Shown here piece after piece: positions 8,707-16,818 of a stretch of 53,956 nucleotides of DNA. Position 1 is the stretch's first letter, and each line of letters begins with the position of its first letter. This DNA comes from Desulforamulus putei DSM 12395 (GTDB lineage Bacteria > Bacillota > Desulfotomaculia > Desulfotomaculales > Desulfotomaculaceae). The stretch is from contig NZ_FQUY01000021.1 in NCBI RefSeq assembly GCF_900129195.1, positions 1-53,956 of the forward strand, in the 5' to 3' direction. Under the pieces are notes generated by a model, which was not told the origin of the DNA, did not search any database, and saw only the letters and a list, made by a program, of their open reading frames with translations. Position numbers and translations under genes: made by a program.

Positions 8707-10310
8707 TACCTCATTCTCTCCATAGCAAATAGTGTGCAATAAATTCCGGTTGACAGTTGGGCCTCCCGCAGTTGCTGGCCCCACAACACCGGTCTCATGC
8801 CCTTCCAACGCTTTTGCAAAAACTTGGTTAAATACTCCCGGTGGTTCCCGGCGAACTGGGGGTAACCACTTAAAGCCCCCAGTATACGATAGCTGCAAAA
8901 GGTGCCCTGGCAGGTGCCCATGCCCATTCTGGTCTTGCGGCGAATGTCTCCCAGGGTAAAGCTGTCCCCACTGTGGGCTGCATGCTCGATTTCAGCCAGG
9001 CTGACCACTTCACATTCGCAAAAGATCCTGCCTTTGTCAGGATTTTTTTCTGCCTGCTCCACCACCTGGGCAAAGCTGTCTCCCAATCTCTCAGCGGCCT
9101 TTTTGGCACCGGGAACACCAAAGACTTTCTTGCCCCGTTCCAGCAGTTCCTCTGACACCGGAGCCGTCAGCGGTTCCCGGGCAGTCCGGCAAGGGGCATT
9201 AACCCCCAGCTGGCTGGCCACCAAATCAACGGTTTTTTCCGCCATCAGGCGGAAGGTGGTGAACTTGCCGCCCACGATGCTCACCATGCCGGCCAAGCCG
9301 TCTCTCTGCCGGTGATCCAACAGGGCAAAGTTACGGGTAACAGACCTGCCGCCGGCGGCACTGTTCTCTTGATACAACGGCCTCACTCCGGCAAAGGCCC
9401 TGATCAGTCTGTAACTTTCTAATTCCGGCACCATTTCCTGGCCGATTTTAATGAGTTCAAGGACTTCATTGTGGCCTGGTTTTGTACAGCCCGGGTTATC
9501 CACGGTAGTAGATGTGGTACCCAGGATGGTAATGGTGCCATGGGGCACAAAAATATCCCCATCTCCCGGCGGTCGTAACCGGTTTACCACCATGCTCATC
9601 AACCTGTGATTGTAAGCCACCAAAGTCCCTTTATCCTTAATCACATTAACTTCCAACCCGGCCATGGCCGCTACTTCTCCGCCCCAGGGCCCTGCAGCGT
9701 TAATAACCATCTCGCATTCAACAGATCTTTTTTGCCCGTTCAGTTGGTTAATTAATTCTACCCCTGTAACTCTGCCGTTGCTTTGATGAATGGCAGAAAC
9801 ACGGTGATAAGTTAGAACTCTTGCACCGTAGCGTCGGGCAGAATTGACATTGCCCCAGAGAATTCGGAAACCGTCCACCGCACAATCAGGAACCTTGAAG
9901 GCCCTGGTAACGTTGGGGGATAAAACGGGATTCTTCTTTATTAATTCCTGCACATCGATCTCTTCACAGTTAATGCCTGCTTCGGCACAGGCGGTAATCC
10001 ACCGGTCAGCGTATTGGGGGTCATCTTCAGGCAGTTGTACAAAGAGACCCCCGGTAAGTTCCACACAATTGGGAGCGATACGGCGCAGAATCATATTCTC
10101 TTCTATACATTCCCTAGCTGCTTCTTTATCCTTTACGGCATACCGGGCACCGCTGTGTAATAGCCCGTGAAACCGGGAGCTGGTGCCATGGGCCAGGTCC
10201 CCCTGTTCCACCAGTACGGCGGGAATACCCCTGAGGGCCAAATCCCGAAGTATCCCTGTGCCGGTGGCCCCGCCACCGATTACCACCACCTGAACTTTAT
10301 CTGTCTCCAT
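8706..10310 (-). CDS. glpA: anaerobic glycerol-3-phosphate dehydrogenase, subunit A
   Basis: The catalytic FAD subunit that oxidises glycerol-3-phosphate to dihydroxyacetone phosphate. It starts METDKVQVVVIGGGATGTGI (FAD-binding GxGxxG) and has the DAO-fold motifs GTSSRFHGLLHSGARYA and GGKFTTFR. The C-terminal 100 residues hold a BFD-like 2Fe-2S site, CEC in IFCECEVVSL plus GMGTCQGTFC, which distinguishes GlpA from the shorter aerobic GlpD. I chose ATG 10310, nine bases after GGGG; an ATG three codons earlier (10319) touches that ribosome site. A strong terminator hairpin lies between glpK and this gene, so glpABC expression probably needs readthrough or antitermination. Confidence 0.93.
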   Translation of the reverse strand: METDKVQVVVIGGGATGTGILRDLALRGIPAVLVEQGDLAHGTSSRFHGLLHSGARYAVKDKEAARECIEENMILRRIAPNCVELTGGLFVQLPEDDPQYADRWITACAEAGINCEEIDVQELIKKNPVLSPNVTRAFKVPDCAVDGFRILWGNVNSARRYGARVLTYHRVSAIHQSNGRVTGVELINQLNGQKRSVECEMVINAAGPWGGEVAAMAGLEVNVIKDKGTLVAYNHRLMSMVVNRLRPPGDGDIFVPHGTITILGTTSTTVDNPGCTKPGHNEVLELIKIGQEMVPELESYRLIRAFAGVRPLYQENSAAGGRSVTRNFALLDHRQRDGLAGMVSIVGGKFTTFRLMAEKTVDLVASQLGVNAPCRTAREPLTAPVSEELLERGKKVFGVPGAKKAAERLGDSFAQVVEQAEKNPDKGRIFCECEVVSLAEIEHAAHSGDSFTLGDIRRKTRMGMGTCQGTFCSYRILGALSGYPQFAGNHREYLTKFLQKRWKGMRPVLWGQQLREAQLSTGIYCTLFAMERMR

Positions 10311-11994: not shown

Positions 11995-12705
11995 TTAGGC
12001 TCCAAAGAAAGTCTTATAGAAAAGTCCGCCCAGGACACCGCCAATAATCGGACCAACCACCGGAATCCAGGCATATCCCCAGTCCGAATCGCCTTTGCCC
12101 GCTATGGGAAGTACGAAGTGAGCAATGCGCGGACCCAGGTCACGGGCAGGGTTAATGGCATAACCGGTGGTTCCCCCTAGGGAGAGACCGATGGCCACAA
12201 TCAGAATACCTACGATAAAGGGGTTCAGACCTTCGGTAAATTTGTTGGCGCCGATGGCCAGAATGCCTAATACCAGCACAAAGGTACCGATGATTTCACT
12301 GAGCAGGTTCGCGCCGGTACTGCGGATAGCAGGACCTGTACTGAAAACAGCCAGTTTTGCTCCCTTGTCTTCTGTGGCAGCCCAGTGGGGTAAATAATGT
12401 AACCAAACGACTACAGCGCCTAAAAAGGCCCCGATCATCTGACCGGCAATATACGTAGGCACCTGGGCCCAGGGGAAGCTTCCAATTGTTGCTAGCGCAA
12501 TGGTGACAGCCGGATTCAAATGGGCGCCACTGATAGATCCAACGGCATAAACAGCAACAGCAACCCCAAAACCCCAGCCGCAAGTAATGACAATCCAGCC
12601 GCCGTTTTCGGACTTGGATTTTTTAAGTACACAGCCCGCTACAACACCGCCACCGAAAATGATCAGTATCATCGTACCAATTATTTCCGCTAAAAATGGT
12701 GACAT
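11995..12705 (-). CDS. glpF: glycerol uptake facilitator (aquaglyceroporin)
   Basis: A 236-residue membrane channel for glycerol. It has six predicted membrane segments and both pore half-helix motifs, GAHLNPAVTIALA near residue 65 and GYAINPARDLGPR near residue 185; the Asp after the second NPA motif is the glyceroporin signature. The ATG at 12705 has GGAGG upstream. It is the first gene of the glpFKABC run and is preceded by a 540-base leader/promoter region with a terminator. Confidence 0.96.
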   Translation of the reverse strand: MSPFLAEIIGTMILIIFGGGVVAGCVLKKSKSENGGWIVITCGWGFGVAVAVYAVGSISGAHLNPAVTIALATIGSFPWAQVPTYIAGQMIGAFLGAVVVWLHYLPHWAATEDKGAKLAVFSTGPAIRSTGANLLSEIIGTFVLVLGILAIGANKFTEGLNPFIVGILIVAIGLSLGGTTGYAINPARDLGPRIAHFVLPIAGKGDSDWGYAWIPVVGPIIGGVLGGLFYKTFFGA

Positions 12706-12887
12706 AAAATATCTCCTCCATTTCCCTTCTTCGCTGGTTAGCGTTTAATGAATCATTCCAGTTATCCAACTACTTGTCCATTTAATCACAGAGCGCCCGG
12801 TTGTTCCACAGGATATTTATGGCTCACATTGTGGAAACCCGATAAAAAATATTAACTTTTCCTCTGGTACAGTGTCCCTCCCTTCTT

Positions 12888-12946
12888 AAAAAAATATAGC
12901 CCAGAACAGACATTCTTTGAATGAATGTCCATCCGGGCCGTCTCCT
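12888..12946 (-). terminator. leader terminator upstream of glpF, likely GlpP antitermination site
   Basis: In the minus transcript AGGAGACGGCC starts the 5' arm. GCCC and GACATTC pair with GAATGTC and GGGC across an internal loop, and UAUAUUUUUUU follows. The hairpin lies in the untranslated leader about 180 bases before glpF, so it stops transcription before the gene unless relieved. GlpP is known in Bacillus subtilis to bind such glp leaders with glycerol-3-phosphate and prevent termination. The same 5' arm start occurs in the glpP leader. Confidence 0.8.
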
Positions 12947-13001
12947 TTTCTCCTGGCCAGAAGAAGTAAAATAAAAACCCTTAAATAGACATATCAAATA
13001 A

Positions 13002-13059
13002 GAAATGCCTACAAAGGGTTATCTCCAAAAACTCCTTACCCAATATCAAATTGTTTTTT
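13002..13059 (-). promoter_or_regulatory. conserved promoter-proximal block of the glpF leader
   Basis: Read on the minus strand it begins AAAAAACAATTTGATA, followed by GGAG, then GGAGAT, then ACCCTTTG and AGGCATTTC. A closely similar block with the same order and spacing lies upstream of glpP (13977-14036). GGGT and ACCC flank the two GGAG motifs and could close a short hairpin presenting them. TTTGATATT may be the -10 region, in which case the GGAG part is the first transcribed RNA. I could not fix the promoter boxes. Confidence 0.6.
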
Positions 13060-13245
13060 GATTATTTTATATATTCTGCAACTAATCTTAAATTCCTGCT
13101 TTTTATTAAAAAATTTTTTTATTTTTTCAACTTTATGTATCACTACCTTGGGCGATTTCGCGGACAATGTTGTAGTCTTCGTCACGCACCTTTATAAAAC
13201 CCAAACCTGAACATATATTTCTCTCCCAATCAATTAAGTAATGCA

Positions 13246-13818
13246 TCACAAAGTAACATTCCAAAGATGCCTGAGACTAGTTGTTATGGCATCTATCCCT
13301 TTGCCAAGAGCCTCCTTAACATCCGTTTCCGTCCTTAATAACCCTCCACCTAAAACAGGAATGTTAAGGGCCCTTTTCATATCCTGAATAACATATTGAG
13401 GAATTGTGGCCGGTAATACTTCAACTGCATGGGGCTTAATATTTTCTGCCACCCGAACAGCGGTTTTAACGGATTCAGAATCCACGATAAATAAGCGTTG
13501 GACAACCCAAAGGTCCTCCTCCATGGCTAATTTGGTCAAGTTTGATTTTGTTGTAACAATGCCCTGTACACCCATTCGTTTTAATAGATGAATACCAGGC
13601 CGGTCTTTTCCGATGCCTTCAAGCAGATCTATATGCGTCAGCATAACCTTGCTCGAAGCGCGAACCCTTTTAATCATCCCCGGTAGATAGTTAATATCCC
13701 CACCTAAAAGGAAAATGGCGTGAATATTTGGATGCCGAACAGCCTCCTCCAGGTCTTCAACCCTCCGAATAGCCGCTCCGATATGACTTCGGCCCATGAC
13801 TTTTTCCAAGAAGTCCAT
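13246..13818 (-). CDS. glpP: GlpP-family glycerol-3-phosphate-responsive antiterminator
   Basis: A 190-residue protein of the GlpP family, which binds glycerol-3-phosphate and the leader RNA of glp genes to prevent early termination. Recognisable family stretches are IFLLGGDINYLP, HIDLLEGIGKDRPG, VQGIVTTKSNLTKLA, FIVDSESV and PVLGGGLLRTETDV; the fold is a TIM-barrel-like domain. The start is ATG 13818, with AGGAGG seven bases upstream; six in-frame codons further up contain that ribosome site. It lies upstream of glpF and has its own leader with a terminator resembling that of glpF, so it probably regulates itself. Confidence 0.93.
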   Translation of the reverse strand: MDFLEKVMGRSHIGAAIRRVEDLEEAVRHPNIHAIFLLGGDINYLPGMIKRVRASSKVMLTHIDLLEGIGKDRPGIHLLKRMGVQGIVTTKSNLTKLAMEEDLWVVQRLFIVDSESVKTAVRVAENIKPHAVEVLPATIPQYVIQDMKRALNIPVLGGGLLRTETDVKEALGKGIDAITTSLRHLWNVTL

Positions 13819-13875
13819 ATCCTTCCTCCTAACCATTTAATAACAAGCTATCTTTAATTATTTCTTGGAATATAC

Positions 13876-13929
13876 AAAAAAATAAACGACCCAAAGCACA
13901 TTTTAACATGTACCAATAGGCCGTTTCCC
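13876..13929 (-). terminator. leader terminator upstream of glpP
   Basis: In the minus transcript GGGAAACGGCC opens the 5' arm. AAACGGCC pairs with GGGUCGUUU (one G-U) and GUACAU with AUGUGC, then UUUAUUUUUUU follows. It ends about 58 bases before the glpP start codon, so it would stop transcription before the gene. The arm start matches that of the glpF leader terminator. Confidence 0.75.
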
Positions 13930-13976
13930 TTTGCTGATGGAGTATGGAACACATCAAACCAGGACAATTCCCAAAG

Positions 13977-14036
13977 GAAACTGCCTTCTTAGGGGTCGTC
14001 TCCGATTACTCCAACCGTATTATCAAATTGTTTTTT
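13977..14036 (-). promoter_or_regulatory. conserved promoter-proximal block of the glpP leader
   Basis: The minus strand reads AAAAAACAATTTGATA, then GGAGTAATCGGAGAC, ACCCCTAAG and AGGCAGTTTC, the same parts in the same order as at 13002-13059 before glpF. About 48 bases separate it from the leader terminator (about 56 at glpF). The remainder of 13819-14127 is A/T-rich and shows no gene. Confidence 0.6.
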
Positions 14037-14127
14037 ATAAATTTCATTCGATACAATCTTTCTTTTTCCTTTTGGAAAATAGAAAATTTTTTAAAAATTG
14101 TTTGCGTCTATGTTTCAGTAAAATCAA

Positions 14128-14349
14128 TTATCCCTTTTCCCCCATACCGACGTGCTCGTCGCCTTTATTGGTCAAGTGATTGGGCGGCGTTTTAAAGGGG
14201 TTGTTGATCTGCTCCTTCTCCCAGGGTGCCATTTCTTTCTGGCTGGTCTCGTCCTCGGTGGCCCCTTTCACCAATTCCCCTTTACGGGTTACCGTCTGCT
14301 CGTGCGACACCCCTGTTTGTAAGGTATGCCTCTTGTCGCGAAGAGTCAT
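14128..14349 (-). CDS. small hydrophilic hypothetical protein, 73 aa
   Basis: I do not recognise this protein. It is charged and hydrophilic, has no membrane segment or cysteine, and is rich in Glu, Lys and Thr, with KGATEDETSQKE and APWEKEQINNPFKTP. The start at ATG 14349 is supported by GGAGG seven bases upstream. It follows fhs on the same strand, but a hairpin at 14415-14455 separates the two, so it is probably transcribed on its own. The composition recalls small acid-rich spore or stress proteins, but nothing in the sequence proves a role. Confidence 0.65.
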   Translation of the reverse strand: MTLRDKRHTLQTGVSHEQTVTRKGELVKGATEDETSQKEMAPWEKEQINNPFKTPPNHLTNKGDEHVGMGEKG

Positions 14350-14414
14350 GCTGTCACCTCCAAAGTTCATTTGTTTTAGTGTTTCCCATCTATTGCATTT
14401 TATAGGATCCACAA

Positions 14415-16181: not shown

Positions 16182-16226
16182 TTTATAGCGAACCTCCTTG
16201 CTTATACTGTATTTCTTTTGTGTCTG

Positions 16227-16412
16227 GTCTGGGCTAACAGGTATTCCACTCAGGTCCTGTCTGGGCTAGGAAGCATACCTTTGGGGTCCAGTCTGGGCTA
16301 AAGGGTATGCCTCTAAGGTCCTGTATCTTAAAAGCAGGATCTTAAAAGCAGGCCCTTAAAGAAAGACCCGTAAGCCCAGACGGGACTTATAGGAATACCC
16401 CAAAGCCCAGAC
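16227..16412. repeat. 32-bp repeat array with inverted copies upstream of fhs
   Basis: Three direct copies start with GTCTGGGCT at 16227, 16259 and 16291, exactly 32 bases apart; each continues with a variant of AAAGGGTATTCCTTTGGGG and ends GGTCCT or GGTCCA. Two inverted copies start AGCCCAGAC at 16373 and 16404. In the middle ATCTTAAAAGCAGG occurs twice in tandem. The arms could fold into a long hairpin. Related degenerate units occur at 27005-27134 and 30575-30645, so this is a dispersed repeat family. It is not a CRISPR: the repeats diverge and have no unique spacers. Confidence 0.75.
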
Positions 16413-16419
16413 TTGGCAC

Positions 16420-16818
16420 TTAAGCTCTACCCGTAAGCTTGCTCTCCACTTTCTGCAGAAACTTCTCCAGGTTAATAATAAACCGTTCATGGGTGCCGGA
16501 ACCGATGGGGCCTGCTTCATCCGCTGCATCCACCTTGAAGACCAGGCGTTTGCCGTCAATCTCAATTAATTCCGCCCGGGCCACCACCCTCATGCCAACG
16601 GGCGTGGCGGCGGTGTGTTTGACGTTCACCAGGGTCCCGACGGTGGTTTGTCCCTCCGGCAAATATTGATCCGCCAGTTCTAGGGCGGCTTTTTCCATCA
16701 ACCCAATCATGGCAGGGGTGGCAAACACCCGGACCCCGCCGCTGCCATAGGCGATGGCTGTATTGCTGTCTTCCACCGTAATGCTCGTTTCATGAGTTAA
16801 CCCTACTTTTAATTCCAC
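16420..16818 (-). CDS. FlK-like hotdog thioesterase
   Basis: A 132-residue single hotdog-domain protein resembling the fluoroacetyl-CoA thioesterase family. Visible family features are the N-terminal TPAMIGLMEKAAL helix, the strand TTVGTLVNVKHTAATPVGM, and the C-terminal DEAGPIGSGTHERFII. In FlK-type enzymes Thr, Glu and His residues from these segments form the active site; here E and H occur in LMEKAA and VKHTAA/GTHER. The GTG start at 16818 has AGGGGG eight bases upstream. Its natural substrate is unknown; most relatives are generic acyl-CoA thioesterases rather than fluoroacetate-resistance enzymes. It follows ndk after a terminator. Confidence 0.82.
   Translation of the reverse strand: MELKVGLTHETSITVEDSNTAIAYGSGGVRVFATPAMIGLMEKAALELADQYLPEGQTTVGTLVNVKHTAATPVGMRVVARAELIEIDGKRLVFKVDAADEAGPIGSGTHERFIINLEKFLQKVESKLTGRA

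Follow-up and report, generated by a model that had tools for sequence, protein, structure and literature searches.

A candidate GlpP-responsive antiterminator hairpin in the glycerol gene cluster of Desulforamulus putei and in other Bacillota

Results

The glycerol gene cluster of Desulforamulus putei DSM 12395 was examined together with a short RNA hairpin, here termed the GlpP box, that recurs within it. The sequence analyzed (the window) is a 53,956-nucleotide stretch of contig NZ_FQUY01000021.1. The cluster lies on the minus strand in the order glpP, glpF, glpK, glpD, and all boxes and terminators of the window described below are on that strand. GlpP, the glycerol-3-phosphate responsive antiterminator, is encoded at 13836-13246 (Pfam PF04309, 182.6 bits), which was the single PF04309 match in a profile search of the genome. 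The regulated genes are glpF (12705-11995, glycerol facilitator, PF00230), glpK (11944-10427, glycerol kinase, PF00370 and PF02782) and a glpD/glpA-type glycerol-3-phosphate dehydrogenase gene (10319-8706, PF01266 and PF04324), referred to as glpD.

The GlpP box is a hairpin of about 4-6 bp. Its loop holds two repeats (RGAGA-N3-RGAGA), and its 3' arm doubles as the start of an intrinsic terminator. The window contains four boxes, one upstream of glpP, a tandem pair upstream of glpF and one in the glpK-glpD gap. Boxes were scored with R1, a short stem-scoring model of 31 positions. The Rfam 15 covariance models produced 0 matches in the window at the gathering score, and the 8 weak Rfam 15 matches over 12600-14400 all fell below their respective gathering scores.

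The leader of glpF contains two box-terminator modules in tandem. Box 1 (13041-13016) has the stem GGGT (13041-13038)/ACCC (13019-13016), the loop AAGGAGTTTTTGGAGATA, an R1 score of 21.6 bits and an isolated fold of -3.4 kcal/mol. Its 3' arm is included in the 5' arm of terminator 1 (13020-12976; stretch -21.4 kcal/mol, z -2.95). Box 2 (12958-12936), the top R1 match in the window with 27.7 bits, has the stem GGCC (12958-12955)/GGCC (12939-12936), the loop AGGAGAAAAGGAGAC and an isolated fold of -6.4 kcal/mol, and its 3' arm is included in the 5' arm of terminator 2 (12939-12898; stretch -30.8 kcal/mol, z -4.28). Comparison with genus-mates identified GGAGACGGCC, at the start of terminator 2, as the 3' half of this second hairpin copy, GGCC-AGGAGAAAAGGAGAC-GGCC. 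Tandem boxes upstream of glpF were also found at four other loci (L019, L027, L036 and L037), and tandem box-terminator modules precede glpF in Carboxydothermus islandicus (L048, 6619-6742). Since Carboxydothermus is another lineage, the tandem layout is wider than the genus of D. putei. At L035 tandem boxes lie upstream of a glycerophosphodiesterase gene.

The box in the glpK-glpD gap (10417-10396) was read from the sequence and has the stem GGCTT (10417-10413)/AAGCC (10400-10396) around the loop GAGAGATGGAGA. Its R1 score is low (12.5 bits) because the loop is shorter by one base. The 3' arm is included in the 5' arm of an intercistronic terminator before glpD (10402-10356; stretch -28.9 kcal/mol, z -3.99). 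A TTTGATA motif (10426-10420) directly follows the glpK stop codon. The identical layout was found upstream of glpD at two other loci (L034 and L036).

A first-pass annotation of this DNA had reported a block of about 58-60 bases before both glpF and glpP, and the recurrence holds up well. The local alignment of the two leaders covers ~180 columns, nearly their full length, with a score of 87; 1000 dinucleotide shuffles averaged 27.1 and peaked at 51. Matched to the glpP leader, the 58-base glpF block scored 52, and its score did not exceed 31 in the part of the window outside 12800-14100. The block consensus in both leaders is TTTGATA-N-GGAG-N5-GGAGAY-NACCC. Given the length of the alignment the two look like paralogous leaders, alike beyond one common block. 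The same annotation placed a terminator with a GGARACGGCC arm 48-56 bases past each block. The arms are present at 12945-12936 (glpF leader) and 13928-13919 (glpP leader), but in the glpF leader the block is directly followed by terminator 13020-12976, the 5' arm of which had been wrongly included in the block. The annotation had overlooked that terminator, box 2 of the glpF leader and the box before glpD.

The box of the glpP leader (14016-13994) has the stem GGTT (14016-14013)/GACC (13997-13994), the loop GGAGTAATCGGAGAC, an R1 score of 19.6 bits and an isolated fold of -5.0 kcal/mol. Behind it lies a weak terminator-like hairpin (13997-13957; GACC...AAGGCAGUUUCC/GGGAAUUGUCC...GGUU) with a poor U-tract and a z of -0.27 in the window. 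The box was recognized by eye at loci L010, L011 and L028, where the weak hairpin, also by eye, has an outer GACC, AACC or AACU with GGUU plus an inner stem. A decayed second box (13936-13919), recognized by eye when this leader was aligned with that of glpF and with relatives, has lost its first repeat. The strong intrinsic terminator of this leader (13926-13884; stretch -26.0 kcal/mol, z -5.33) has no intact box in its 5' arm. A long-range pairing between ACGACCC of the glpP box and GGGUCGU of the last terminator fits the window and was rejected, as it fails in L010, where the box has AACUUC.

These features bear on the earlier claim that GlpP controls its own gene, which is only partly upheld. 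One box is kept. The hairpin behind it is weak, however, the second box has decayed and the strong terminator lacks an intact box, so some unregulated stopping upstream of glpP seems likely, and GlpP would relieve at most part of it. Boxes are also found upstream of glpP at L049, L053 and L054 and in genome G089, so self-control may be real in other genomes. Two observations on glpP itself were made along the way. The genus-mate G005 (L028:1380-2200) has kept the entire glpP leader with no glpP frame between the glpP and glpF leaders, and another GlpP is encoded elsewhere in G005. G002:C3 (L014 and L015) carries an additional glpP-like gene that is split in two and has an internal stop codon.

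Three of the four boxes in the window have their 3' arm in common with a strong terminator; the glpP box shares its arm with the weak hairpin only. Because the terminator 5' arm starts in the box 3' arm, both structures cannot form together. The three hairpins folded in isolation (-3.4 to -6.4 kcal/mol) are far weaker than the glpF and glpD terminator stretches (-21.4, -30.8 and -28.9 kcal/mol), so the hairpin would need help to win, and a protein is expected there.

Terminator overlap was next counted in 80 loci (859,776 bases) fetched with a GlpP alignment. A terminator was called when it started at most 9 nt from the motif core, reached -12 kcal/mol or better and had a U-tract. By this measure 80/210 motif cores abutted a terminator, overlapping matches and near-duplicates counted, compared with 5/207, 19/217, 9/180 and 4/141 for permuted-motif controls. 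A further pattern, AG[AG]G...AG[AG]GA (31/131 with terminators), includes the box form AGAG...AGAGA and is no independent control. Terminators and downstream genes in relatives were called with simple scripts, and some nearest genes may be wrong.

In genus-mates the loop motif GGAG-N4/5-GGAGAY is found upstream of glp genes between flanks that have changed and still pair. Among the 80 GlpP loci alternative stems include GGCT/AGCC, GGACT/AGTCC, GGGT/ACCC and TGTGGT/ACCACA. The block is conserved in relatives in the form of a two-repeat loop and pairing flanks that recur before glp genes. Over all loci 90 non-redundant sites were collected. Core length is 13 nt in 57/90, the first repeat is GGAGA in 42/90 and AGAGA in 27/90, and the second is GGAGA in 47/90 and AGAGA in 43/90. 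TTTGATA was considered as a universal part of the element and rejected. It precedes box 1 in the genus of D. putei and in several nearer relatives, is absent before box 2, and TTGAT[AC] or TATGATA precedes 14 of the 90 sites. It is treated here as a lineage-specific extra.

Stem pairing was tested in sets selected in different ways, although sequence kinship may inflate all of the shuffle tests. The first set consisted of 38 core-only sites from the window and the 80 loci, for which the only criteria were the loop motif and a position 15-400 nt ahead of the start of GlpP, GlpF, GlpK or GlpD. Stems of at least 4 bp were found in 32/38, against a mean of 15.3 and a maximum of 24 in 2000 shuffles of the partners, and stems of at least 5 bp in 15/38 (shuffled mean 7.2, maximum 14). 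The second set contained 68 non-redundant loop-plus-terminator sites from 154 loci fetched by the GlpP protein only. Here 46/68 had at least 4 bp (mean 17.7 and maximum 28 in 1000 shuffles) and 24/68 at least 5 bp (mean 7.2, maximum 15). Over all loci 59/90 sites had at least 4 bp (mean 25.2, maximum 40), a set that includes loci fetched by R1 and therefore by a model that scores stems.

The first-pass annotation had proposed comparing related glp leaders for covariation, and the comparison came out in its favor. The 58-row alignment A2 was composed of the 38 core-only sites minus 5 (L050 6619, L051 1561, L074 3262, L078 9869 and L095 3364) plus 25 hairpins from a descriptor scan; a 26th candidate duplicated a row already included. 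The covariation score was 0.437 versus 0.203, and 0/500 shuffles scored as high. On sliding one column either way the score drops to 0.198 and 0.272, so that the given register is highest. A2 is partly selected for stems, and the 38-site and 68-site tests are cleaner. Subgroups differ in register by one base, and realigning with R1, meant to mend this, introduced no new gaps.

The distribution of the box was then compared with that of GlpP. PF04309 was present above cut-off in 54/149 Bacillota genomes, with 20 further genomes that have sub-cut-off matches counted as lacking GlpP. At E<=0.005 R1 matched 27 genomes, 22/54 with GlpP and 5/95 without (p 1.4e-7). After removal of the 3 genomes that have sites in the training alignment the counts were 19/51 and 5/95 (p 1.6e-6). 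18 of the 22 matches are within 10 kb of glpP on the same contig. Among the 30 loci listed, one per genome, an overlapping terminator (-9 or better) was found in 16/22 GlpP genomes and in 2/8 others, 3 of these 8 loci being at E 0.005-0.006; random positions yielded 48/900. R1 alone was rejected as a genome-wide finder, being too short and noisy, and terminator overlap was required. Among 34 genomes around Bacillus chungangensis, terminator-backed R1 matches were found in 12/27 genomes with GlpP and 0/7 without (p 0.036), with L243, one of five R1 loci that have no recognizable core, counted as not terminator-backed. In the family of D. putei 8/9 GlpP genomes have a match near glpP or in the glp cluster among the matches listed, the weakest with an E of 0.34 (G002).

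Genes behind the boxes are glpP, glpF, glpK, glpD and the gene for GlpT (TIGR00712, above cut-off). Boxes also precede genes for two glycerophosphodiester phosphodiesterases (PF03009), two solute-binding proteins with UgpB as top NCBIfam match (below cut-off), a HAD-IIA phosphatase (TIGR01460, above cut-off), an MFS transporter, an LTD exoprotein and an MgtC-family protein. Several of the products synthesize or transport glycerol phosphates, in keeping with glycerol-3-phosphate as the signal. In two genomes (L214:1689-3029 and L173:1-1404) a box and terminator were seen before a gene that combines a methyl-accepting chemotaxis signaling domain with a phosphonate-binding domain. GlpP was not detected in one of these genomes, G144, and is present in the other.

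Discussion

The antiterminator role of GlpP is long established, and the parts of such a system were found together in D. putei: a PF04309 protein, terminators before glpF (two), glpD and glpP, and a shared RNA site placed on a terminator. We give a probability of roughly 84% to the reading that the box is a GlpP-dependent antiterminator, in which GlpP and glycerol-3-phosphate hold the hairpin and block the terminator. The first-pass annotation had suggested that two GGAG motifs presented on a GGGT/ACCC stem are the GlpP-responsive RNA. Widened to variable stems and four boxes, this proposal probably holds, given the hairpins with covarying stems, the fixed two-repeat loop, the terminator overlap, the co-occurrence with GlpP and the glycerol-phosphate genes behind boxes in distant Bacillota.

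In the proposed mechanism RNA polymerase would make the weak hairpin, which carries in its loop the two RGAGA repeats at a spacing of about 8 nt. Without inducer the hairpin would open, its 3' strand would become the base of the far stronger terminator, and transcription would stop ahead of the gene. With glycerol-3-phosphate, GlpP would occupy both loop repeats, stabilize the hairpin and keep the shared strand from the terminator. Polymerase would then continue into glpF-glpK and past a second checkpoint into glpD. With two tandem modules before glpF the read-through fractions would multiply, giving tighter control. The spacing of about 8 nt would suit an oligomeric GlpP in contact with both repeats. 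Structures of GlpP relatives have been solved (3kts and 1vkf), and the fold of GlpP is presumably a TIM barrel. The accessible text of PMC7430163 describes glycerol-3-phosphate-bound GlpP as binding the antiterminator.

Several findings weigh against this reading. The strong terminator of the glpP leader has no intact box. R1 is not specific genome-wide, since it matches a GAGAGA-GGAGA motif at 9100-9070, within the glpD coding sequence, which has a broken stem and was discarded as a false positive. Five GlpP-less genomes have R1 matches at E<=0.005, one of them (G144) with an overlapping terminator. Conversely, 32/54 GlpP genomes have no R1 match at E<=0.005 under the stricter filters applied, so either R1 misses many boxes or some GlpPs use other sites. 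In the set of 34 genomes around B. chungangensis, R1 matches at E<=0.01 occur in 15/27 GlpP genomes and 2/7 others, which is no significant difference (p 0.40), and only 7/30 GlpP loci (1.5 kb each side) had a loop motif backed by a terminator that reached -8 or better. The genus-mate G007 has GlpP and, among the matches listed, none near its glpP. As a separate observation, R1 matches in G003 and G005 are about as far from the glp boxes of those genomes as the 9070-9100 motif is from those of the window.

The strongest alternative is that GlpP recognizes the two RGAGA repeats in single-stranded form, somewhat in the manner of HutP, and covers the 5' arm of the terminator, the flanking stem being minor. 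The loop repeats vary far less than the stem, no 4-bp stem was present in the registers searched in 22/68 protein-fetched sites and 31/90 sites over all loci, and the stems shift in register and are weak in isolation. We consider this alternative unlikely because stem pairing is far above that of shuffled partners in differently selected sets and because the stem covaries in the 58-row alignment. It is very improbable that the GGAG repeats are instead ribosome-type (STAB-SD) mRNA stabilizers or a GGA-loop protein site such as that of CsrA. GGAG does resemble a Shine-Dalgarno sequence, and CsrA binds GGA in loops. According to the accessible text of PMC7430163, GlpP also stabilizes glpD mRNA in Bacillus subtilis. 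Against this, many boxes have AGAGA, without GGA (27/90 first and 43/90 second repeats, both in L038 and L040), the boxes are placed on terminators, and they track GlpP. That a riboswitch senses glycerol-3-phosphate directly, with GlpP incidental, is scarcely credible, for although hairpin and terminator exclude one another as in riboswitches, the element is a weak hairpin of 20-odd nt in which no ligand pocket is evident, its occurrence goes together with that of GlpP, and glpP-deficient B. subtilis loses glycerol induction of PglpD (PMC9604022, accessible part).

A GlpP-dependent antiterminator would have its nearest counterpart in the B. subtilis glp leaders (glpD, glpFK and glpT), which have in common with those described here the regulator family, the kinds of genes, and a 5' leader that combines a GlpP site with an intrinsic terminator (PMC9604022 and PMC7430163, each as far as its text is accessible). 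The same part of PMC9604022 gives PglpD, PglpT and PglpFK as the GlpP targets and states that these three promoters have a GlpP binding site and terminator in common. D. putei differs from B. subtilis in the tandem modules before glpF, the box between glpK and glpD, and the box-bearing glpP leader. No consensus of the GlpP RNA target was found among the open-access passages and papers listed, and the site may be in print in subscription papers such as Glatz 1996 and 1998 or in the supplement of PMC9604022.

Other antitermination systems share single aspects of the design. The regulators of ribonucleic antiterminator (RAT) hairpins, BglG, SacY, LicT and GlcT, have BglG-type RNA-binding and PRD domains. 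The regulator beside the leaders studied here is of another family and matches PF04309 alone (Pfam, E<=0.001), with no BglG-type domain in a search for such regulators that covered that protein. HutP, which reads NAG repeats, is likewise a metabolite-activated antiterminator that uses short repeated motifs, but here the two RGAGA repeats are within a hairpin. As proposed for the GlpP box, the protein-bound RAT structure precludes an overlapping terminator (passages in PMC8934654 and PMC7430163); LicT reads two bulges in RAT (again a passage in PMC7430163), whereas the GlpP box has a loop with two RGAGA repeats. The GlpP box works like RAT by means of a shared strand, yet it is not a RAT member. 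ANTAR antiterminators such as EutV also use two repeated recognition elements beside a terminator. The two-hairpin hexaloop arrangement of ANTAR targets was not found in the boxes, which form a single hairpin; EutV reads a dual hexaloop RNA (PMC8934654, in the part accessible), whereas both repeats here are in one loop of ~13 nt.

The regulatory system is real and of a known kind. The RNA element is well supported and apparently uncatalogued, and the multi-checkpoint layout is unusual. On balance we lean towards a broader view, in which the GlpP box represents an RNA family so far uncatalogued, found through much of the Bacillota and read by a metabolite sensor that recognizes two RGAGA direct repeats in one loop. 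The regulon would then extend beyond glpFKD to glpT, glycerophosphodiesterases, UgpB-type transporters, the HAD-IIA phosphatase, MFS transporters and, in one GlpP genome at least, a fusion of chemoreceptor and phosphonate-binding domain, and tandem and intercistronic boxes would make the glycerol cluster of D. putei a multi-checkpoint one. If this is true, the GlpP regulon can be read from sequence and members can be predicted in other genomes. An element backed by covariation makes GlpP recognition testable by point and compensatory changes, and it could serve as a small portable glycerol-responsive part.

Two further features were noted in the window. A small reading frame of 94 codons (14128-14412) lies just upstream of the glpP leader, and a GGAGGTGA-type ribosome site precedes an inner ATG. 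At 16190-16420 several repeat copies containing TCTGGGCTA were seen by eye, just upstream of a frame that was named, also by eye, as formate-tetrahydrofolate ligase-like.
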